Shown here: positions 1,639-15,689 of the stretch, piece by piece
How the letters are laid out: every line of letters begins with the position of its first letter
Position numbering within the stretch: the stretch's first letter is position 1
Assembly: GCA_001769505.1 (NCBI GenBank)
Contig: MEOF01000041.1
Location: 1-64,000 of the forward strand
Length of the DNA: 64,000 bases
Reading direction: 5' to 3'
DNA from: Bacteroidetes bacterium GWF2_33_38
GTDB taxonomy: Bacteria; Bacteroidota; Bacteroidia; Bacteroidales; GWF2-33-38
Notes under the pieces: generated by a model
Told to the model about the DNA's origin: nothing
What the model saw: the letters and a program-made list of their open reading frames with translations, nothing else
Databases searched by the model: none
Translations under genes and position numbers: made by a program

Positions 1639-1668
1639 TGTCAATTGTCCATTCAAAATTATCAATTA
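1637..1668. repeat. AATTGTCAATTGTCC-type short repeat
   Basis: This second copy of the AATTG-rich repeat family sits exactly at the end of hsdR and the beginning of the S23-type gene. Confidence 0.5.
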
Positions 1669-4600
1669 TTTTTTGTATCGTATTTTTGCAACTTCAACAC
1701 ATTTTTCAGCCATGATTTCAGCTTCATCAATTGGCATTTTCAATTCATCAATCAGATATTCACCGATGTAAAAATTAATTCGTCGAACTATATCGAGTTT
1801 TTGAGGCCAATCAACAACTTGATGCTTTTTAATAATTGCATCGGTTTCAACTGCAAAAGTTTCGCATTGCTCTGGTTTCAAATTTGTTGATGAAACAATT
1901 AAACGATAGAATGGAATGCAATCTTCAATATTTTGTAATTTTAATGGAATATCATCTCCTTTTTTTGTAACAGCTTGTTCTCTATATTCTTTTAATTTCT
2001 TTAATGCTGCAAGTTCTGAAATACGTAATGCTCGTAAGTCTGAAATAGTTTGCTGAATTAACTCCGAAAGCTTTTTAAAGAATACAGGGTCTTCATCCAT
2101 GTGTTCCGAAATGTGCTTTGTTGTACGACTTGCTATTGTTTCGGCTTTTGCTCTTGCACCAATCACTTTCTCAAGTTCGTTTTCAAAAGCTTCTGCATCT
2201 AAAATACTTACTTGTTCGGTTAATCGAATCACTTCTTCGGTAGTTACATGCTGATCGAGAAGTTTTTGAAGTTGTTTTTCATACTTTTTAAAATCAACAT
2301 CATCAGAATATGTATTGATAATTGAATTACGCAAAGAAGTATAAAATTTAATGTGTTTTTTATAAAGAGATTTTGTCTTTTCAGCTGTATTGTTTTCAAA
2401 TTCTAATGACGAAAAAGCTATTTTCAGGCATTTTGCAAAAGCACTAAATTTTTGATAGAAGTCTGTTCGGATTGCTTCGTCGGCTAATAAGCTTGCATAA
2501 CTTACAACATCGTATTTGCTTGGAATTTCTTTAAAAATATCGTTTAATACAGAATTTAATTGAGGTAGCTTTTCAATCTCTTTTTTAATATCTGTAAATG
2601 TGCCTTCAAGTTCTGATTCTTCAAATTCAGATAAGTTAGAATATGTGTTCATGGCTTCGTCTAATTCGCCAATAATTCCTTCGTAATCTATTATAAATCC
2701 AAACTCTTTACCTTGTGATACACGATTTACACGAGCAATTGCCTGTAATAAATTGTGACCAACCAACTTTTTGCAAACATACATTACAACAACTCTTGGC
2801 TCGTCAAAACCTGTAAGTAATTTATGCACAACTATTAACAAGTCAGGATAATCGGTTTTTTTAAATTGGTTAATAAGACTTTTTTCAAAATCTTTACCAT
2901 ATTTCGCTTCCATTTTTTTCCAAAAAACAACAACTTCATCAGTTGGCTCTTCGTGAACATCTTCATTTCCATCTCTATCATCGGGCGAAGACATAATAAC
3001 TTCAGTTGTAACTTTTCCAATTAAATCAAATGCTTTTTTGTATTTAACGGCTGTAGCTTTGTCTTGAGTTACAACCATTCCTTTGAAACCGCTTCGTTCG
3101 CCAGTTTTGTCTAAACCCCAATTTTGTGTAAAATGGTCAGAAATATCGCGAGCAATTTCGTCAATTCGTTGTTCAGTTTTTTCAATCAAATTTGCCTTGC
3201 TGAATTTCTTTTTCAAATCGGCTCTTTGATATTCTGATAATGGCTCTGAAACACTATCAAAACCTCGGTCTAAAGCTTTTTGATTTACATTTTGCATAGC
3301 GTGACGACCTTCATAAATTATTGGAACAATTGCCTTATCTTCAACAGCTTGTAAAATTGTGTAAGCATCAATTATTCCTCCAAATTTTTGTGCTGTACTT
3401 TTTTCTTTTTTCATCAACGGAGTTCCTGTGAAAGCCAAGAAACAAGCATTTGGCAGTACTTTTTGCATTTTCACATTGAAAGTTCCATATTGAGTTCGGT
3501 GACCTTCGTCAATTAATACAAAAATGTTGTTTGATGTTAGTGGCGAACTTCCTAATTGATTGACTGCTGCTTCAAATTTATTTATAATTGTTGTAACAAC
3601 TGCATCGCTTTTGCTTTTCAATAAATCAATTAATTGATTGCCTGTTTTTGCATTCAAAACTGGAACATCAACTTTACCAAAAGTGTCTGTTATTTGTGTG
3701 TCTAAATCTACTCTGTCGGTAACTAAAACAATTTTGGGATTTCGCACGGTTTGATAAATTTTTCGAGCCAACATTGCCATTGTTAACGATTTGCCACTTC
3801 CTTGTGTGTGCCAAATAACTCCGCCTTTTCGTTTTCCTTGATCGAAATTCTGAATTCGTTGAATAATTTTTTTTATTGCAAAATATTGCTGATAACGTGC
3901 AATTTTCTTGAATTTTCCTGCTTCAAAAATAATGTAATCTTTGGCTAATTCTAATAACCTTTCGGGACGACACAAATTATATAAATACTCATCTTGCTCA
4001 CTTTTTAATTCAATTTCCGATGTTTTTGGCTCTTTCCACGTTGCCCAAAATTCTTCTTTTGTATCAGTTGTTGCATATTTTGCGTGTAAAGTTGAAGTGC
4101 TTAATAACAATTGACTATAAACATATAAATGTCTAATTCCATCTTCTTGCTGATTGCGAATATGTTGCGAAATTGCTTGAGAAATTGGCTCTTTCATATC
4201 TGGACGTTTGCATTCTAAAATACAAAGTGGAATTCCATTTACAAAAAGCACAATATCGGGGCGAAAATGTTCTTTGCTTCCTGTTCGCATAACGCTATAT
4301 TCTTCGGTTACGTGAAAAACATTATTTTCGATATTTTCCCAATCAATATATTTTAATGTGAAACTTTTTTTATCGCCATCAATGCTTTGTTCAAATGCTT
4401 TTCCTAATGTTAATCGCTCATAAGCAACTTGACAAGCTGAAATATATCCTTCGTGCATTGGCAAATCTTTGAGAGCCAAAATTCCGTTTTCAATATTTGC
4501 ATCGCTAAAAATTGTTGTTTTTGTTGAACTTAATCTTGGAATATTAATTTCTTTTAGTTGCTTTCGCAAAATATCTTCTAATAAAACATTTGTTGTTTTA

Positions 4601-4713
4601 CCGCCACGCAATTCCAATGCTTGTTCAGGATTTAAATACGTATAACCAAGCTTTTGCAATAGTTGCAAAGCTGGAATTTGGCTGATTTGGTCTTCTTTGA
4701 ATGAACTTGTCAT
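1666..4713 (-). CDS. hsdR: Type I restriction enzyme R subunit HsdR
   Basis: This 1015-residue motor and nuclease subunit of a type I restriction-modification complex translocates DNA with ATP and cuts it. The N-terminal PD-(D/E)xK nuclease shows as PDIVLFVNGIPLCILECKRP at about residues 150-170. The helicase core follows: Walker A in HTQGSGKS near 301, a DEGH box near 403, TGTPL soon after, and an ARVNRVSQGKEFG motif VI region. The C-terminal helical part is present and the length is normal. The start MTSSFKEDQ fits the family. It is separated from hsdM and hsdS by about 5-8 kb of unrelated genes, which is unusual because the three subunits are normally adjacent. Confidence 0.97.
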   Translation of the reverse strand: MTSSFKEDQISQIPALQLLQKLGYTYLNPEQALELRGGKTTNVLLEDILRKQLKEINIPRLSSTKTTIFSDANIENGILALKDLPMHEGYISACQVAYERLTLGKAFEQSIDGDKKSFTLKYIDWENIENNVFHVTEEYSVMRTGSKEHFRPDIVLFVNGIPLCILECKRPDMKEPISQAISQHIRNQQEDGIRHLYVYSQLLLSTSTLHAKYATTDTKEEFWATWKEPKTSEIELKSEQDEYLYNLCRPERLLELAKDYIIFEAGKFKKIARYQQYFAIKKIIQRIQNFDQGKRKGGVIWHTQGSGKSLTMAMLARKIYQTVRNPKIVLVTDRVDLDTQITDTFGKVDVPVLNAKTGNQLIDLLKSKSDAVVTTIINKFEAAVNQLGSSPLTSNNIFVLIDEGHRTQYGTFNVKMQKVLPNACFLAFTGTPLMKKEKSTAQKFGGIIDAYTILQAVEDKAIVPIIYEGRHAMQNVNQKALDRGFDSVSEPLSEYQRADLKKKFSKANLIEKTEQRIDEIARDISDHFTQNWGLDKTGERSGFKGMVVTQDKATAVKYKKAFDLIGKVTTEVIMSSPDDRDGNEDVHEEPTDEVVVFWKKMEAKYGKDFEKSLINQFKKTDYPDLLIVVHKLLTGFDEPRVVVMYVCKKLVGHNLLQAIARVNRVSQGKEFGFIIDYEGIIGELDEAMNTYSNLSEFEESELEGTFTDIKKEIEKLPQLNSVLNDIFKEIPSKYDVVSYASLLADEAIRTDFYQKFSAFAKCLKIAFSSLEFENNTAEKTKSLYKKHIKFYTSLRNSIINTYSDDVDFKKYEKQLQKLLDQHVTTEEVIRLTEQVSILDAEAFENELEKVIGARAKAETIASRTTKHISEHMDEDPVFFKKLSELIQQTISDLRALRISELAALKKLKEYREQAVTKKGDDIPLKLQNIEDCIPFYRLIVSSTNLKPEQCETFAVETDAIIKKHQVVDWPQKLDIVRRINFYIGEYLIDELKMPIDEAEIMAEKCVEVAKIRYKK

Positions 4714-4725
4714 TGTTTTAATCTT

Positions 4726-5010
4726 TTATGGAGAATTTTTATATAAATATGGAGAATTAAAATCTAAATCACTATTGGTTCTAATATCTCTATCAACTAC
4801 ATTATCAAACACTTCATGATTATCTTCTATATATCTTGGAGAATTAATAGTTAATCTTGGAGAATCAATACCTAAACCTATATTAGCTCTAACATCATCA
4901 TCACCTACATTATCAAACAAATAAGTATTATCATCTATATGACTTGGAGAATTACCACGTTGCATATTATTTCTTTCATTTTTAATCAATAATTTTCGGA
5001 TATTAATCAA
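4726..5010 (-). CDS. Small protein made of two 36-residue tandem repeats
   Basis: This 94-residue frame is not a recognised family. After a leader of about 19 residues it contains two back-to-back 36-residue units, each starting NSP, with the shared pattern NSPxxIxDNxxxFDNVxDxDxRxN and an SP near the end, followed by a terminal NSP. The DNA repeats with a 108-base period. The acidic, Asn/Asp-rich composition and repeat number suggest copy-number variation. An internal ATG at 4965 (MQRGNSP) is an alternative start. It lies 12 bases upstream of hsdR on the same strand. It could be a real small gene or a decaying remnant of a longer repeat protein. Confidence 0.5.
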   Translation of the reverse strand: MINIRKLLIKNERNNMQRGNSPSHIDDNTYLFDNVGDDDVRANIGLGIDSPRLTINSPRYIEDNHEVFDNVVDRDIRTNSDLDFNSPYLYKNSP

Positions 5011-5024
5011 AATATTACGTTATA

Positions 5025-5163
5025 ATGTGTAACCACATTTAAAATGTTGTATGTTTGTATTGTCATTACCCAAAGGGAAAAGGACGTGGCAGTCTGTAAC
5101 AAGTTTACTCCATCCGTATTGCCTTAAGATACGTTCCTCACTTACGAAGTGAGGTTTTTTTTT
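5025..5163. repeat. Dispersed palindromic repeat with terminator-like hairpin
   Basis: No gene is convincing here. A perfect stem CCTCACTT/AAGTGAGG (5136-5143 and 5147-5154, loop ACG) is followed on the plus strand by nine T's. The neighbouring words GTCATTACCC, GACGTGGCAGTCTGTAAC and, on the other strand, TGTTACAGACTGCCACGTC resemble widespread intergenic repeats that translate as VTDCHV. I read it as an inserted non-coding repeat. Its hairpin could also act as a plus-strand terminator. Confidence 0.4.
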
Positions 5164-5164
5164 G

Positions 5165-5704
5165 TTATAAAGTTTCATTATATTCATTATACCATTGTTT
5201 ATATTTTTGTTTTTCACTATAATCAACAGAAAACGAAGTTATTAGCATTAAATCTGGTTTTATTTCCCGTATGATTACAATGAAATGTTTTTCTTCGTAC
5301 CAATAATATTGTTGGTTATAGCCATCATCATTTAATCGCTCGAAATATTTAATTCTTACATCACTTACATTCTTAATAATTGGTCTTATCCAGTGAATTT
5401 TATTTGCTCTCTCTTTGTCAAAATCTCTTTTTTCTTTATATTTACTTTCTCGTGTAATAATATGCTCAAATCCCTTAAACTTTCCCTTGCATACAGGATG
5501 CATAGAAATATTTCTATTAAAAGACATTTCGATACCATTTATTACAATTGGATTATTTACAATATCATTTAGAAAAATACCATACATTCTATATAGCTGG
5601 TCTCTAGTTGGACCATCAATAGATAAATCTTCAAATAAGTCGCATAAATTATCTAATTCATCGAACTCATCATCAATATCTGATAAATTATTAAAATCAA
5701 TCAT
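5165..5704 (-). CDS. Hypothetical protein, possible BECR-fold nuclease
   Basis: This 179-residue protein has an acidic N-terminus (about the first 35 residues). Its C-terminal half reads like a small RNase domain: HPVCKGKFKGFEHIITR, then KRDFDKERANKIHWIRPII, then an aromatic strand region ending in ITSFSVDY. The spacing of His, Arg and an aromatic strand near the end resembles barnase/EndoU/colicin-like (BECR) toxin nucleases; this is pattern recognition, not a proven match. Its start overlaps the DUF3800 stop by four bases (ATGA), indicating translational coupling. It may be an effector or partner of the DUF3800 protein. Confidence 0.6.
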   Translation of the reverse strand: MIDFNNLSDIDDEFDELDNLCDLFEDLSIDGPTRDQLYRMYGIFLNDIVNNPIVINGIEMSFNRNISMHPVCKGKFKGFEHIITRESKYKEKRDFDKERANKIHWIRPIIKNVSDVRIKYFERLNDDGYNQQYYWYEEKHFIVIIREIKPDLMLITSFSVDYSEKQKYKQWYNEYNETL

Positions 5705-6426
5705 TTTGAAGAGCTTATTTGAAAATCGAAAATATTAAACTTAGACTCCCATGGAATTGTTCCATCATCAAGTGAATAACCGGTTTTCTTTTCGAGGTAA
5801 TTAATTACTTCACACTTAATTTTAGATGCGTTTGGTTTTATGTTTTCTTTTCTTGATTTGTAAGTTATTGCACCAATAAATAAATCGGTTAGTTGCAACA
5901 ATTCATTTTCGTGAGAATGAATATGTTGAAAATATTTGAATGGTGATTTACCTTCATTTTTATTGTTTAAACAATTTGCTAATTCGGTAAGCCGTTCTTT
6001 TCCTCTTGTATCTTTTATATCTAAAATCACTCTATAAATTTCATCCTTTTGATTAATATATTTATTATTCAACAATAGATATATCATCTTGTAATAGAAG
6101 GCATTATGATCTCCTCTATTGAATTTTTCGTGATCGAGGTTTTGTTTGTTTTTAACTAAAACACAGCGAAAAGTAATATTGCTCGAAAAAAAGTAATCAA
6201 TTAATTCTTTGTATAATGGGAATCGAGACATTGAAAGTTTATTCCATTTTAATTCTGTTGGTGCTTTATGCTTTAGTTTAATTTTTTTTATGTCATCTTT
6301 TATAATTGGATATTTTTCATATTCAATTTTTGTATAACCAATACACATTATTTGTATTCCATCATGTTCTAAATGACAGCTTTCATCAATATAAAGGTTG
6401 AACATTTTGTTAGTCATTTGATTCAT
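5701..6426 (-). CDS. DUF3800 domain protein (RNase H-like fold)
   Basis: This 241-residue protein has the DUF3800 signatures: an N-terminal acidic strand FNLYIDESCH near residue 12, a central LDIKDTRGKERL, and the late motif LLQLTDLFIGA near 175-185. In this family the conserved acids are thought to form an RNase H-like active site, but no reaction is established. It begins 4 bases after the AlbA_2 gene stop and overlaps the following 179-residue gene, so the three form a tight unit. DUF3800 genes recur in accessory regions; a defence role here is inference. Confidence 0.8.
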   Translation of the reverse strand: MNQMTNKMFNLYIDESCHLEHDGIQIMCIGYTKIEYEKYPIIKDDIKKIKLKHKAPTELKWNKLSMSRFPLYKELIDYFFSSNITFRCVLVKNKQNLDHEKFNRGDHNAFYYKMIYLLLNNKYINQKDEIYRVILDIKDTRGKERLTELANCLNNKNEGKSPFKYFQHIHSHENELLQLTDLFIGAITYKSRKENIKPNASKIKCEVINYLEKKTGYSLDDGTIPWESKFNIFDFQISSSK

Positions 6427-6430
6427 TTTA

Positions 6431-7348
6431 TTAAGAATTTAACTTTTTATATTCTTCCATTTCTGAATTAGTTGTTTCAACAGGAGTAACATAATTTGGC
6501 TTTGCCACAGTCTCACTCCCTTGAAATTCCTGATAATAAAGATTATTATATATATCCTGAAAATACAATCTAAATATGAATTTTCTATTTGAAAATGGTA
6601 ATTCTCCATATAATGGACCAGTAACATTCCACCTCTCGCCATTACCAATAAATTGTATATGAAAAGGAGCGTTACTTATTGTAGATTCCGAGTTTTTATC
6701 TGCAATTACAGCAATGGTTTCAGCATTTTCTCCAATATTTTTAAACTCCCAACTTAAATGTTCACGCCTTGAACTGCCACCATCCCATTGAAATTTGGGC
6801 AACTTGTCTTTTTTTCGGGTTTCTTTTGTTACTTCAACGAGTTGAGCAATTGAACCATTTTTTAATTTTGAAAGCAACAAGTGAAAATCTGCTCCCTTAA
6901 TTGGCTCAGATTTACCTGAATATCGCCAATATAAACTTCCATTTTTTAGTTCATTTCCATCTCTGATGCAAACAGCAGGAATGTCTTTGTACTCTTTGGC
7001 ATAAACAACAAATAAATCTACTTCAAGATGTTTGTAAGTCCTCCCTCCAATGTCAATTGAGGGTACAAAATATTTCTGTATTTGGTCAGTAACATTTTTT
7101 AAATCAACACTTTTTATTTCGTTTAATCCTATAATTTCACCTGTTTTGTCGTTTATTCCAAAAATTAAATATCCTCCTCCTGCATTTGATAACGCAATTA
7201 GTTCTTTTATATATTTATTTTGAGCCGTAGGATTGCCCCATTCAAGTTGTACTTTATACTCAACTTCGTCATTTTCAAGATTTACAATATGTCCAGTATG
7301 GTCAACTTGTAATAAATCTTTGAGAATTATATCATCTAAATTGTTCAT
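6431..7348 (-). CDS. AlbA_2 (Schlafen-type) domain protein
   Basis: This 305-residue protein has an N-terminal AlbA_2 domain (about residues 25-140), seen in KELIALSNAGGGYLIFGIND followed by GEIIGLNE. Members are putative nucleic-acid-binding or nuclease domains related to Schlafen cores. The C-terminal half (about 190-280) is strand-rich (HLSWEFKNIGE, WNVTGPL, FRLYFQD) and resembles a beta-sandwich sensor domain, which I cannot name. It heads a tight three-gene unit with DUF3800 and the putative nuclease. The preceding gap holds a relic of an hsdS 3' end. Confidence 0.85.
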   Translation of the reverse strand: MNNLDDIILKDLLQVDHTGHIVNLENDEVEYKVQLEWGNPTAQNKYIKELIALSNAGGGYLIFGINDKTGEIIGLNEIKSVDLKNVTDQIQKYFVPSIDIGGRTYKHLEVDLFVVYAKEYKDIPAVCIRDGNELKNGSLYWRYSGKSEPIKGADFHLLLSKLKNGSIAQLVEVTKETRKKDKLPKFQWDGGSSRREHLSWEFKNIGENAETIAVIADKNSESTISNAPFHIQFIGNGERWNVTGPLYGELPFSNRKFIFRLYFQDIYNNLYYQEFQGSETVAKPNYVTPVETTNSEMEEYKKLNS

Positions 7349-9074: not shown

Positions 9075-9830
9075 TTATTTTTTATGAAATTTATCTTCGT
9101 CCCATTTCAGTGGGTTATTTTTAATATAATTAGATATATTCTGATATGATTTTTTGTTTCTAATAATATGCTCCCAGTAATTTTTTTGCCATATTGATTT
9201 TGATAAATCGATGTTTATTTCTGTTAGATTTTCTGATGTGGGGATTTCAGAGAGAGAGATTTCTGTGGAGATTCCTGTGGGGGCGTATTGCAATACGCCC
9301 GTACTGCTGCTGCTGCTGCTATTTTTAATTTTATTTTCTTCATAAATCAATTCTTTTATTCTTTTTGTTGTTGCTCCTTTGTATCCTCTAATTATTGCTC
9401 CTATTGTTTGTGATGGTGATTTGAATTTTTCTGTCGGGGTCGGGGCATGTTTCAATATGTCGTTTTCTGTCGGGGTGTATTGCAATGTTTTATTTTCTGT
9501 CGGGGCGTATTGCAATGTTTTATTTTCTGTCGGGGCGTATTGCAATACGCCCTCTACGGAATAATTAATTTGAATAATTCCGTGCATATGATTTGGCATT
9601 ATTATATATTCTTGTAATGATATATTTTTTCTTATTTCGACGTTTTTTATCCATTCTTCTTGGGCTATTTTACCTAATGGATTTAATATCATTTCGCCAT
9701 TTTTAATTTTACCAAATATTTCTGTTCTATTTTGTGTTACGATGGTAATAAAATATAATCCTTCCTCAGAATAATCGTATTCTTTTAATCTGATTGATTT
9801 GCGGTTATGTTTTTGTGGATTATATTTCAT
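9075..9830 (-). CDS. REP-associated tyrosine transposase (RAYT, Y1/HUH family)
   Basis: This 251-residue Y1 transposase of the IS200/IS605-related RAYT class nicks and joins single-stranded palindromic REP sequences. The N-terminus shows YFITIVTQNRTEIFG, the HUH motif lies in MPNHMHGIIQI, and the catalytic Tyr is likely in NYIKNNPLKW near the C-terminus. The middle is odd. Between the HUH motif and the TIGAIIRGYKG helix lies a repeat insert reading QYAPTENKTL several times, and further on a serine run plus another LQYAPTG, all encoded by copies of the palindrome GTATTGCAATAC. The frame stays open through all copies, so the gene appears intact. Confidence 0.9.
   Translation of the reverse strand: MKYNPQKHNRKSIRLKEYDYSEEGLYFITIVTQNRTEIFGKIKNGEMILNPLGKIAQEEWIKNVEIRKNISLQEYIIMPNHMHGIIQINYSVEGVLQYAPTENKTLQYAPTENKTLQYTPTENDILKHAPTPTEKFKSPSQTIGAIIRGYKGATTKRIKELIYEENKIKNSSSSSSTGVLQYAPTGISTEISLSEIPTSENLTEINIDLSKSIWQKNYWEHIIRNKKSYQNISNYIKNNPLKWDEDKFHKK
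9281..9300. repeat. Perfect 20-bp REP-like palindrome inside the RAYT gene
   Basis: GGGCGTATTGCAATACGCCC is its own reverse complement. It encodes part of the VLQYAPTG stretch. A (GCT)5 run encoding serines follows directly at 9306-9320. Confidence 0.85.
9432..9552. repeat. 30-bp tandem repeats ending in a REP-like palindrome
   Basis: Units containing TTTTCTGTCGGGGYGTATTG recur with a 30-base period (units begin near 9469, 9499 and 9529), with a more degenerate copy upstream from about 9432. The last copy completes the perfect palindrome GGGCGTATTGCAATACGCCC at 9533-9552. The period is a multiple of three, so the RAYT frame is kept and a ten-residue peptide repeat results. Confidence 0.85.
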
Positions 9831-9863: not shown

Positions 9864-11090
9864 TTAAATTTTCAATCTCTTTTTCCCAGTTAATAAAACC
9901 TGCATCAATCCTTTTTTCTGCTCTTTTAGTTTTTCGAGTTTGGCTTTGTAGCTTTGTATTTCTTTATCGGCAGTTTGGAGAACTTTGGCAATAGCGGTTT
10001 GCTCTTCGGTAGACGGTAAATTTAATTTTACATTGCTTATAATATTGTTATATAATCTTTGAATAGTACCTCCTTCGGAGTCATAACGAATTATCTTATA
10101 TACATAAAATAAGTATTCGTTTATTACTTTTGAATTGTCATGACTTATCCAAACAATATTTGAATCCTGAAAATATGCAGGAATACCGTCGTAGACTACT
10201 GTTCTGCCTAATGTTCCAGCAGCAGAAATTAAAATATCACCCTTGCTTGGAAATGAAAATCTGGTTTTGTAATCGTTATAAAGCTCTTTTGAAATATATG
10301 CATCTGCTATTTTTCCGAATGTTCCAATTTTATAAAAAGGAATATCGCCTTTATGTTTAGTTTCATGATTGAAAACTCTTCTACACATTTTTATTTTCCC
10401 AATATTGCCTAACTTATATTCTTTCCAATCCCCACTAAATCCTTTCAAACGTTTTTTCCCAGTTAACAAATTTTGCATTAACCATTTCTTTCTTAATTGT
10501 AAATTGTCAATTATCAATTGTAAATTAGAAATGGCTTTATCCCAAGTGCTGAGAACTTCGGCTATGCGAATTTGTTCGGGGAGTGGTGGAATTGGAAGTT
10601 TTAGTTTTGATAATTCGCTTGAATAAATATGAACGACGGAATTTCCTTGTCCTAAAATTCTTTTTTGTTTTTTTGCAATATCTGTTTCCAAAGCATAAGA
10701 TAAACATTCAGCAGAAAAACTCTCTTTTGTAGATAAAATAATTATATCACCACCAGCATAAGCTTTTTCACTACCCAAATATGCAACAGACTTTCCAATT
10801 TCTTCAACTGTTTCACCTGAACCAGCAAAAAGAATATCTCCATTTTTGATTTCTTGACTTTCGTTGGCTACATCATTTGAAATAAAAGATTTGAATTCTT
10901 TAATAATAAAATCGTGAGTGGTGTATATTTCTCCATAACGAATACAAGGAAAACCGTTTTCAATTACTTGTTCTTTTAAAATTCCTTTTCCTTTAGAAAA
11001 AGTACCAATTTCGCTTAATTCTTTCACTTCCCAATCGCTAGGAATTTTGCCAATTGGAGAGTTTTTATATGTGGTTTGGTTGTTATTCAT
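9864..11090 (-). CDS. hsdS: Type I restriction specificity subunit HsdS (two target domains)
   Basis: This 408-residue subunit of full length has two target-recognition domains separated by the conserved coiled spacer LPEQIRIAEVLSTWDKAISN (about residues 165-185) and ending with EEQTAIAKVLQTADKEIQ and LLTGKKRLKI. It sets the DNA sequence recognised by HsdM and HsdR. Part of the central helix (NLQLIIDNLQLRKKW) is encoded by an AATTG-rich repeat like those near 1240 and 1640. Its start overlaps the stop of the HEPN-like gene by eight bases, indicating coupling. A second, half-length specificity gene lies upstream of hsdM. Confidence 0.95.
   Translation of the reverse strand: MNNNQTTYKNSPIGKIPSDWEVKELSEIGTFSKGKGILKEQVIENGFPCIRYGEIYTTHDFIIKEFKSFISNDVANESQEIKNGDILFAGSGETVEEIGKSVAYLGSEKAYAGGDIIILSTKESFSAECLSYALETDIAKKQKRILGQGNSVVHIYSSELSKLKLPIPPLPEQIRIAEVLSTWDKAISNLQLIIDNLQLRKKWLMQNLLTGKKRLKGFSGDWKEYKLGNIGKIKMCRRVFNHETKHKGDIPFYKIGTFGKIADAYISKELYNDYKTRFSFPSKGDILISAAGTLGRTVVYDGIPAYFQDSNIVWISHDNSKVINEYLFYVYKIIRYDSEGGTIQRLYNNIISNVKLNLPSTEEQTAIAKVLQTADKEIQSYKAKLEKLKEQKKGLMQVLLTGKKRLKI
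10494..10530. repeat. AATTG-rich repeat within hsdS coding sequence
   Basis: AATTGTAAATTGTCAATTAT and the following CAATTGTAAATT lie in the segment coding for the central HsdS coiled coil. They belong to the same word family as the intergenic repeats at 1236-1272 and 1637-1668. Spacer-length changes in this part of HsdS are known to alter type I recognition spacing. Confidence 0.6.
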
Positions 11091-11895: not shown

Positions 11896-12192
11896 TCACA
11901 GCCTTGGAACTTCCTCTCCCGAATGTATATGTCGGTGATGAAGCCAGGTTTTTTTTGCTCCTTTGCCAAGTTCTATCATTTCGAGGATATCCTCGAAATG
12001 ATTCAAAACCGCATTATTACTATTCTTACAAGCATCTTTTGCTTTTTCAATAACTGGCTTAAAATGTCTATATTCTGAATATTCTAAAACTTTAGACAAG
12101 TCTCTGGCTGACCAAAATTCATTTCCTTTTTCATCAACTTTTTTTATTTGCTCAAAAGCTGTTTGATTATGTTTTTGGAGCTTGTTATTCAT
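11896..12192 (-). pseudogene. dinD: Truncated DinD / BRO-N family gene
   Basis: This 98-codon frame matches only the N-terminal part of DNA-damage-inducible protein D: FWSARDLSKVLEYSEYRHFKPVIEKA, then ACKNSNNAVLNHFEDILEMIELGKGAK. Full-length DinD proteins are about 270-290 residues and continue with a conserved SRYACYLI region that is absent here. After GKGAK the frame runs into unrelated residues (KTWLHHRHIHSGEEVPRL). The break looks like a recombination junction, so I treat it as a remnant, although a short BRO-N DNA-binding protein could still be made. Confidence 0.75.
11977..12000. repeat. 24-bp perfect palindrome CATTTCGAG-N6-CTCGAAATG within dinD
   Basis: Arms CATTTCGAG and CTCGAAATG flank GATATC, giving a perfect 24-base palindrome. 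It codes for HFEDILEM in the DinD fragment. A sister inverted repeat with the same arms and spacer length lies just upstream of the gene at 12220-12247. Confidence 0.7.
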
Positions 12193-12794: not shown

Positions 12795-14354
12795 TTAAGA
12801 CATTAATTCTTTTAAATATTTATTCATTTCAGTTTGCACGGATTTTAATTCGTCTTCGAGTTTTTCAATTTCTCGTTGAACATCTGAAATATTCACTTCA
12901 GTTTCTTCCTCAAAAGTGTCAACATAACGAGGAATATTCAAATTGAAATCGTTTTCGCTAATTTCTTCAAAAGTGGCAACGTAACTATATTTTTCTTCAA
13001 TTACTCCATCCTTTAATTTCCCTTCGTTAAATTGTCTATATGTTTCAACAATTTTATTGATGTGATTTTCATTCAGTTTATTTTGATTTTTTGCACTATC
13101 GTATTGTTGACTACTATCGATGAATAAAACGTTTTTATTTTTGTCTTTCGCTTTATTAAAGACCAAAATTGCAGCTGGAATTCCAGTTCCAAAGAAAAGA
13201 TTTGCTGGCAATCCAATTACAGCTTCTAAAATATTTTCCTCAATAGTTTTTTGACGTATTTTGCCTTCACTACTTCCACGAAATAAAACTCCGTGTGGAA
13301 CTACAACTCCAACTTTTCCTGTATCGTTTATAGTTTCAATCATGTGACTTATAAAAGCCCAATCTCCTTTGCTTTTTGGTGGAATTCCACGCCAAAAACG
13401 ATTGTATCTATCGGTTTCAGGATCAAAATTAGTTCCTGATTTATTGTCTTCTTTATCGTCAACTTTGCCCCATTTATCTAGCGAAAAAGGTGGATTTGCT
13501 ACAACTGTATCAAATTTCATTAATGCATCGCCTTCTTTCAATTTTGGATTTCTAATTGTATCTCCCCAACGAATTGTTGCACTATCGAAACCGTGCAAAA
13601 ACATATTCATCACAGCCAAAGCCCAAGTGCTTCCGTTTGCTTCTTGTCCATAAAGTGAAAAATTATCGCTTCCAACTTCTTTTCCTGCTTTTATAAGCAA
13701 TGAACCGGAACCGCAAGTTGGGTCGCATATTTTTGCTCCCGATTTTGATTTTGTAAGTTTTGCAAGTAAAGTTGAAACTTCACTTGGAGTGAAAAATTCT
13801 CCGGCTTTTTTTCCTGCATCACTAGCAAAATTGGAAATTAAAAATTCGTAAGCATCACCAATAATGTCGTTCTTTTCTAAATGAGAAGGAGAAAGATTGA
13901 GCTCACTAAAATCGAGAATTAAATTTTTAAGTCTATTGTTTTTATCTTTAGTATCACCCAAATTACTGCTGTTAAACGAAATATTTCTAAAAATACCACT
14001 TCCATCTTCACTACTTAGTTTTTCTCTATTGGCTTCTTCAAGATCGGAAAGTGCAATATCAATTAATTCTCCTAAATTAATTTCATTTCTACCTTCATAC
14101 AAAAACTCAAAACTACTGTTAGACGGAACTATAAAACGCTCCATTTTCATTGCTCTTTCGGTTCGCTCTTCATCTCCTTTGTATTTTTCTAAATATTGAA
14201 TTCGTTTTTCTTTATTAACATCGCTCACATATTTTAGGAAAAGCATTGTGAGTATATAATCTTTGTATTGAGATGGATCAATAACGCTTCTAAATGTATC
14301 GCATGCTTTCCATACAATTTGATTAATTTCTTTTTGAGTAATTTTATTTGCCAT
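12795..14354 (-). CDS. hsdM: Type I DNA methyltransferase subunit HsdM
   Basis: This 519-residue N6-adenine methyltransferase has an N-terminal HsdM_N helical domain (MANKITQKEINQIVWKACD onward), the SAM site DPTCGSGSLLI near residue 211 and the catalytic NPPF near 286. The C-terminal coiled coil (EIEKLEDELKSVQTEMNKYL) contacts HsdS. The length is normal and no disruption is seen. It starts three bases after the stop of a half-length specificity gene, so the two form one operon. Confidence 0.97.
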   Translation of the reverse strand: MANKITQKEINQIVWKACDTFRSVIDPSQYKDYILTMLFLKYVSDVNKEKRIQYLEKYKGDEERTERAMKMERFIVPSNSSFEFLYEGRNEINLGELIDIALSDLEEANREKLSSEDGSGIFRNISFNSSNLGDTKDKNNRLKNLILDFSELNLSPSHLEKNDIIGDAYEFLISNFASDAGKKAGEFFTPSEVSTLLAKLTKSKSGAKICDPTCGSGSLLIKAGKEVGSDNFSLYGQEANGSTWALAVMNMFLHGFDSATIRWGDTIRNPKLKEGDALMKFDTVVANPPFSLDKWGKVDDKEDNKSGTNFDPETDRYNRFWRGIPPKSKGDWAFISHMIETINDTGKVGVVVPHGVLFRGSSEGKIRQKTIEENILEAVIGLPANLFFGTGIPAAILVFNKAKDKNKNVLFIDSSQQYDSAKNQNKLNENHINKIVETYRQFNEGKLKDGVIEEKYSYVATFEEISENDFNLNIPRYVDTFEEETEVNISDVQREIEKLEDELKSVQTEMNKYLKELMS

Positions 14355-15274: not shown

Positions 15275-15297
15275 GAATGATTTGTGATTTAATCCAG

Positions 15298-15689
15298 TGG
15301 AGCTGCCGGGACTCGAACCCGGGTCCAAACAAGAAACCCAAAGGCTTTCTACATGTTTAGCCATTTCTTAATTTTCGTGAGCAGACCGGCAAGTGGCAAC
15401 CAAACTGAACCTTATTCCCTTTATTTTCGCCAAACAATCAGGACTTTCATTCGACTATCTCTAACAAACTTGTGCCTCCTATTCCATTATCGTAGAGAAT
15501 GACTCTGGAGAGACAACCCGTCTCAGCTCCTAGAGCCGAGAGAGCTTAATTTACTAAACTTCAATTAAGCAGCGAGTGCGTAGTTATTTTCGCCAATTAT
15601 AGTTTTGTAATACAGTTTTACGAGTTATACTACAATGCTCGACATGCTTACATTTCGATTCATCTTGCTGTCAAAACCGTGTCAACCCC
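15298..15689 (-). ncRNA. ssrA: Transfer-messenger RNA (tmRNA)
   Basis: tmRNA rescues stalled ribosomes. The 5' end GGGGTTG (from 15689) pairs over seven positions with CAGCTCC at the 3' end (15299-15305), and the T-arm reads GGGTTCGAGTCCC. The tag frame lies at 15594-15565 and encodes GENNYALAA then a stop, the Bacteroidota-type tag. The terminal CCA is not encoded: after GCTCCA the gene continues CTGG. Length is about 392 nt, with a normal one-piece layout. The accessory island begins just beyond its 3' side, a favourite integration site. Confidence 0.95.

Follow-up and report, generated by a model that had tools for sequence, protein, structure and literature searches.

A DUF3800 and BECR-like putative nuclease pair with a convergent structured RNA in restriction loci, phage P1 and other phages: a candidate RNA-neutralised toxin module

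The conserved module at the locus analysed here consists of two overlapping genes, encoding a DUF3800 protein (hereafter A) and a 179-aa protein (B), and of a non-coding RNA (ncRNA) gene of about 100 nt that converges on them from the opposite strand, instead of the three protein-coding genes (those for A, B and an adjoining AlbA_2 protein) that an earlier note on this DNA had joined into one unit. The locus is located in the window, the 64,000-nt stretch of contig MEOF01000041.1 of Bacteroidetes bacterium GWF2_33_38 that was analysed. The reading that we favour, with a confidence somewhat better than even, is that A and B constitute an RNA-neutralised two-nuclease toxin module that is found in restriction loci, and that phages carry mimics of its RNA.

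Within the window (Table 1), the genes for AlbA_2, A and B are located between the HsdS and HsdR genes of a type I restriction locus, and a strong + strand terminator (5136-5163) right behind the B gene represents the 3' end of the ncRNA. The tight spacing and the restriction setting described in the earlier note were both confirmed: according to the ORF coordinates, four bases separate the AlbA_2 gene from the A gene (6427-6430) and the ORFs of A and B overlap by four bases (5701-5704), with HsdS, HsdR and HsdM flanking these genes.

Table 1. Coordinates of the module, its ncRNA, the neighbouring AlbA_2 gene and the host restriction genes in the window.
Feature	Position	Strand	Evidence or remark
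B: 179-aa BECR-like putative RNase (PDC-M04B)	5165-5704	-	PADLOC profile 3.2e-68, predicted structure
A: DUF3800, class II RNase H fold (predicted), 241 aa (PDC-M04A)	5701-6426	-	PADLOC 2.3e-85, Pfam 2e-13
AlbA_2 (Schlafen AlbA_2) protein, 305 aa, neighbour outside the conserved module	6431-7348	-	Pfam SLFN_AlbA_2 2.9e-15
Type 1 ncRNA gene, convergent with A-B	5060-5163	+	structure, compensatory changes, covariance model match
ncRNA 5' core P1-P2	5062-5085	+	
ncRNA second hairpin	5115-5133	+	
ncRNA terminator hairpin	5136-5154	+	followed by T-run 5155-5163
Promoter-like box TATGTTTG	5050-5057	+	4 nt ahead of the RNA core
HsdR, host restriction locus	1666-4713	-	PADLOC profile and locus comparison
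HsdS, host restriction locus	9864-11090	-	Pfam, PADLOC, locus comparison
HsdM, host restriction locus	12795-14354	-	Pfam, PADLOC, locus comparison

The adjacent, overlapping A and B genes encode members of PDC-M04A and PDC-M04B, the two halves of the PADLOC candidate system PDC-M04 (profile matches at 2e-85 and 3e-68, respectively). The DUF3800 domain (PF12686) of A was detected with 51.8 bits vs a gathering score of 21, and the B protein matched no family in the Pfam search. The earlier description of the locus as undescribed is only partly right, the protein pair being already listed. To our knowledge, no ncRNA, restriction-embedding or fold is listed for PDC-M04, and the literature search found no paper that names it; among the papers on DUF3800 that were found, the passages available describe no such module. 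What is known is the pair as a listed candidate and the presence of DUF3800 genes near ncRNAs; the RNA family, its place in restriction loci together with B, the identity with rlfAB of phage P1 and the orphan phage copies were not found in the available portions of the literature searched.

The search for the B family in 296 genomes of the phylum yielded 15 positive genomes, and the search for A in GTDB species genomes yielded 11 loci; A and B are adjacent in nearly all loci from both searches. The exceptions are L042 and L044, which have a B remnant and no A, and L045, a 3.7-kb contig on which a shortened B likewise stands without A. Another A-B pair, diverged from the first and with an RNA of its own, immediately follows a different HsdS gene in the genome that contains the window (G000 C47; L002, L041:9041-10214). 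In one type I locus (L022:4574-7531), two A-B pairs are accompanied by three different RNAs, which looks like the insertion of one module into another, and a second, different RNA is present also in L027.

The predicted structure of A (pLDDT 87.7) matches RNase HII (1eke; Foldseek E 2.4e-4; Z 12.3, 172 residues aligned, 3.5 A), in agreement with the nuclease-like fold proposed for DUF3800 in the earlier note, and the first 18 rows of the structural list are all RNases H2/H3. Residues D14, E15, E58, D136 and D181 are among those invariant in 24 sequences, and the DES motif of A resembles the DEAG start of RNase HII. As modelled, A has a class II RNase H fold with conserved acidic residues, and its catalytic activity is putative. 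For B (pLDDT 90.9), which was folded and compared with BECR nucleases as had been suggested, BECR toxins lead the VIA-align list with a modest match: the top row is CdiA-CT 8ey4 (Z 5.5, 81 residues aligned, 3.1 A), followed by colicin D and 7vd7 (Z 5.4 each), HigB1 (5.0), BrnT and YafQ (4.6) and RelE (4.2). Nearly all entries to about rank 25 (Z about 3) are BECR toxins, and unrelated proteins appear at Z 2.9 and below; the matched families CdiA-CT, colicin D, HigB, BrnT, YafQ and RelE are of the BECR type. Foldseek with the B model gave nothing significant (best E 0.19), the sequence profile of B had no match in the PDB, and the BECR families of Pfam had none among 22 B members. Residues F79, H81, R93, R99 and T156 are invariant in an alignment of 22 B sequences. 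Judged solely from the predicted model and the VIA-align list, B is probably a BECR RNase.

The third component is a conserved element that recurs on the opposite strand behind B in locus after locus, with differing flanking DNA; in the modules read, the ncRNA is directly 3' of B and convergent with it. A TAnnTTTG box, of the Bacteroidota -7 type, is found 4-7 nt ahead of the RNA core in 16 of 25 modules, and in most of the 25 the T-run of the RNA ends at or near the stop codon of B. The alignment of type 1 RNAs (ten sequences) contains four helices with 97.4% of the cells paired, and five of its pairs have changed on both sides, vs 0.9 in shuffles (0/500 shuffles as high). The RNAs of type 2 differ in the look of their sequence but share with type 1 an ungapped 5' core, which consists of a 3-bp helix, AU, a 4-bp helix with a loop of five bases, and AA(A/G). 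In the joint core alignment of both types (11 sequences, 10 distinct), 98.6% of the cells are paired, six of the seven pairs include double changes, and the covariation amounts to 0.759, compared with 0.220 after shuffling (0/500) and at most 0.273 when the pairing is slid; variants of the 3-bp helix read by eye include UUC/GAA in L002 and ACA/UGU in L007. The RNA type tracks the phylogenetic tree of B, in which a single branch (support 88/91) separates 12 type 1 from 14 type 2 rows (0/500 label shuffles as low).

A known Rfam RNA was ruled out, as no family matches this RNA in the window (up to E 5), in module loci (14 loci up to E 1, 13 loci at gathering thresholds) or in 8 viral or P1 loci (up to E 1). 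The one exception is L010, where a second RNA, located past the type 2 RNA of the module, matches DUF3800-VIII.

The RNA also persists where the protein genes decay. A covariance model of the type 1 RNA (R1), searched in 395 genomes, had two matches, namely the window (5058-5168, 108 bits, E 4e-18) and an RNA in G002 that adjoins the remnant of a B gene whose A partner is missing. The model trained on six A-B-linked type 2 RNAs (R2) had 25 matches in 296 genomes, 20 of them strong (E <= 3e-8); L248-L251 and L253, whose matches exceed E 1e-6, are not among the strong ones. Fifteen of the 20 strong matches abut B, which in eight of these cases is a stump of 44-71 aa beside an intact RNA, and the remaining five have neither A nor B within flanks of up to 1.5 kb. 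An intact RNA beside a broken B could also result from ordinary decay from the far side. The matches in L248-L251, between ordinary host genes, may be plain terminators, and L253, where a fragment that looks like part of an SNF2 restriction helicase is also preserved, is probably the remains of a restriction locus. The orphan type 2 RNAs of L246 and L253 adjoin HigB-like genes, with a sub-cut-off Pfam match in L246 and none in L253.

Pattern scans of viral contigs identified at least 28 contigs, mostly fragments, that carry 19 distinct RNA sequences and no A-B. None of the 29 orphan records (the 28 and L141), each searched over its whole length, matched the B profile, which did match 3/3 positive controls; A was absent from the ten orphan records searched (A4 search), a search that had no positive control. 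The loosest viral pattern matched 112 stretches, and among the 80 loci examined, a second helix of at least 4 bp is present in 24, where 1.2 were expected and no more than 5 occurred in any of 1000 shuffles. Of 20 viral orphan loci, 16 reach 29.5-63 bits with R2, scores that are partly imposed by the viral patterns, which fix about 16 letters or more, so that the second-helix shuffles and the stem-less matches serve as the controls; outside these 16, L094 and L098 are of type 1, and L113 and L141 fell short. No R2 match at E < 0.1 was found in 40 control regions, and a single one of the 55 stem-less pattern matches passes R2. The one that passes (L177:5264-5322, - strand; 42.3 bits) is an additional viral RNA overlooked by the stem filter. 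L141, with no R2 match, was treated as a chance viral match. Several of the orphan RNAs adjoin terminase, portal or capsid genes (L094, L098, L105, L113, L133, L156), and L094 also carries an N4-like RNA polymerase. The pattern scans also recovered P1-like and other contigs in which A and B are present (L099-L104, L108, L111, L127), and a search of viral contigs with a single B sequence had no match.

Phages that keep the RNA without the nucleases and chromosomes that keep it when B is broken are what would be expected of an antitoxin. Under the scheme proposed here, A (RNase H fold) and B (BECR-like RNase) would form a two-nuclease toxin module, and the structured convergent RNA at its 3' end would act as an RNA antitoxin that holds the activity off in the manner of type III toxin-antitoxin systems. 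As the RNA has a putative promoter and a terminator of its own, loss, shut-off or disturbance of the locus by a phage would lower the amount of RNA and release the nucleases. Placed in restriction operons, such a module might both stabilise the restriction locus and serve as a second line of abortive defence, to which phages would respond with the RNA alone, as a mimic.

The proposed logic of an RNase toxin, an RNA antitoxin and phage RNA mimics is common to this module and to ToxIN and its kin, including pseudo-ToxI; the two would work alike but are not homologous. The antitoxin RNA of type III systems is encoded upstream of the toxin as tandem repeats, whereas the RNA described here is a single-copy, convergent, downstream element with no upstream repeats, and an additional RNase H-like partner is present; furthermore, the BECR-like fold of B is presumably unlike the fold of ToxN. 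There is a precedent for phage RNA mimicry in the pseudo-ToxI RNA of phage TE, which defeats ToxIN (PMC3475682). A broader formulation, which we advance tentatively and with a confidence short of even, is that the module represents a new class of RNA-gated defence, in which a DUF3800 protein and a BECR RNase are kept inactive by a dedicated folded ncRNA; this defence would operate as a fail-safe inserted in restriction systems of many types across Bacteroidota, would be present in P1 and would be countered by widespread orphan RNA decoys of phages.

The RNA might instead be an activating cofactor or guide of DUF3800, such that A and the RNA jointly recognise foreign nucleic acid, with B as an RNase that acts collaterally or in processing. 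This possibility, which we regard as unlikely but the least so among the alternatives, draws on reports that DUF3800 proteins are accessory nucleases of the rare CRISPR types V-A2 and VI-F (PMC10910872, PMC12669027) and that DUF3800 genes occur near ncRNAs (PMC10910872). It is also favoured by a DUF3800 lineage without B (L255, L260), to which the Rfam RNA DUF3800-VIII is convergent. The DUF3800-I, -VIII and -IX RNAs of Rfam, reportedly described by Weinberg in 2017, adjoin DUF3800 genes as does the RNA of the module, and DUF3800-VIII is likewise convergent at the 3' end; unlike them, the module RNA matches no Rfam family, and the DUF3800-VIII loci L255 and L260 have no B. Given this B-less arrangement, the RNA may belong to A instead of neutralising B, or may bind both: DUF3800 may be the ancient partner of such RNAs and B an added effector, and the RNA could bind A, or both proteins, and even activate instead of inhibiting. 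Against a cofactor or guide, phages with the RNA but with neither A nor B are hard to explain, and the type 1 alignment has no variable guide-like stretch; a CRISPR-like guide was accordingly rejected for want of a spacer-like variable segment. The search with DUF3800-I had no matches, its controls being silent as well. The DUF3800-VIII RNA stands alone in L256, L257 and L259. In L256, it (1501-1574) is just upstream of an AlbA_2/HATPase_c_4 gene (1760-3073), with no DUF3800 in the flanks examined, and L257 has the same arrangement, with a near-identical protein start.

The module is associated with restriction systems of several types. Restriction-modification genes (type I, Eco57I-type or N6_N4) are present in the flanks of 20 of the 27 A-B loci, six of which match by construction because the Eco57I and N6_N4 profiles were built from them, vs none of 40 control regions (20 kb each, from four genomes that each carry a module or its remnant); Pfam independently names genes at those six loci methylases or restriction helicases. 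A methylase is found in 19 of the 20 restriction-linked loci, and type I linkage in 12 of the 27, with HsdM/S/R profiles that started from the window proteins. The count of 27 leaves out L045 and copies of the window locus; alignment A3 leaves out L028, L031 and L049. The A-B pair is located between HsdS and HsdR in ten loci (the window, L022, L023, L024, L026, L029, L031, L032, L041 and L047) and beside other restriction types in eight more, among these an Eco57I methylase with Mrr or a PLD helicase (L028, L035, L046) and ResIII with an N6_N4 methylase, with or without an SNF2 helicase (L037, L048, L050). Restriction genes are not obligatory, since the modules of L030 and L036 are flanked by host genes on either side, with no restriction genes.

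These positions between HsdS and HsdR and beside other restriction genes would also suit a guard comparable to PrrC, in which the restriction complex silences A-B, phage anti-restriction proteins release it and the RNA merely tunes expression. PrrC is reported to be kept silent by a linked type I system until a phage anti-restriction factor releases it (PMC2610378). Given that the module occurs with restriction systems of unrelated architecture, and without any in L030, L036 and P1, where rlfAB is beside repL, no single restriction complex can be the silencer, and such a guard also leaves the conservation of the RNA and the phage orphans unexplained; we consider it improbable. Linkage of an RNase to restriction loci, as proposed here, is a trait of the PrrC and RloC anticodon nucleases, but A and B match no ABC ATPase family in Pfam and are linked to many restriction types.

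The same gene pair is found in phage P1. RlfA of P1 is 43% identical to A over 97% of the length, and rlfA and rlfB correspond to PDC-M04A (1e-95) and PDC-M04B (1.3e-51); as in the window, the genes overlap, have the same order and are followed by the same convergent RNA core. This opposite-strand RNA, with its terminator, occupies the gap behind rlfB and scores 54.5 bits with R2, although P1 was absent from the training set. In contrast to the window module, the RNA of P1 is of type 2 and the pair is beside repL in a phage-plasmid, outside any restriction operon. The A and B genes and the RNA core are present also in a Bifidobacterium phage, a faecal phage and a Methylobacterium replicon. The P1 database record describes both rlfA and rlfB as 'possibly associated with lytic replication', and the P1 literature, in the portions available among the matches listed, gives no further function. 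This annotation, together with the copies in other phages, would fit a housekeeping operon of mobile elements or phages with the RNA as its regulator, an explanation we consider highly improbable: the sampled loci are mostly chromosomal, inside restriction loci, and a CRISPRi screen of P1 places both genes among the non-essential ones (PMC10695390). Non-essentiality fits the RNA-antitoxin idea as well but is no test of it.

The three-gene defence module of AlbA_2, DUF3800 and BECR protein, which the tight spacing in the window had suggested, can be dismissed almost entirely, as AlbA_2 is absent beside A-B in 26 of 26 other loci and has no relative at E <= 1e-10 in the other 197 of the 198 genomes searched, so that the trio was not seen elsewhere in these loci and genomes, an outcome that the earlier note had itself named as refuting its proposal. 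By the same evidence, AlbA_2 is a passenger at the window locus; in this one strain, the pair may still depend on it functionally.

With the RNA-neutralised module as the favoured reading, these results supply PDC-M04, a defence candidate that is catalogued but has yet to be characterised, with a conserved RNA and place the pair inside restriction systems of unrelated types. The rlfA-rlfB genes of P1 gain a testable role beyond that in the database record, and P1 and E. coli K-12 make testing easy. Should the orphan RNAs of phages prove to neutralise the module, they would constitute a large natural family of RNA anti-defence elements that is recognisable by sequence.

Several further features of the window locus and of related loci were observed. 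A 94-aa ORF with internal repeats (4726-5010, - strand) separates the ncRNA from HsdR, and a Y1-type transposase-like protein with tandem LQYAPTEN-like peptide repeats (9075-9830, - strand) is encoded between HsdS and the module. The 98-aa Bro-N protein of the window (11896-12192, - strand) is shortened compared with relatives of 284-306 aa, which are encoded between HsdM and HsdS in L022 and L029. The restriction locus has a tmRNA gene (15297-15689, - strand) at its HsdM end, and tRNA genes adjoin several of the stand-alone modules (L025, L028, L030, L034), as if islands used tmRNA/tRNA sites.
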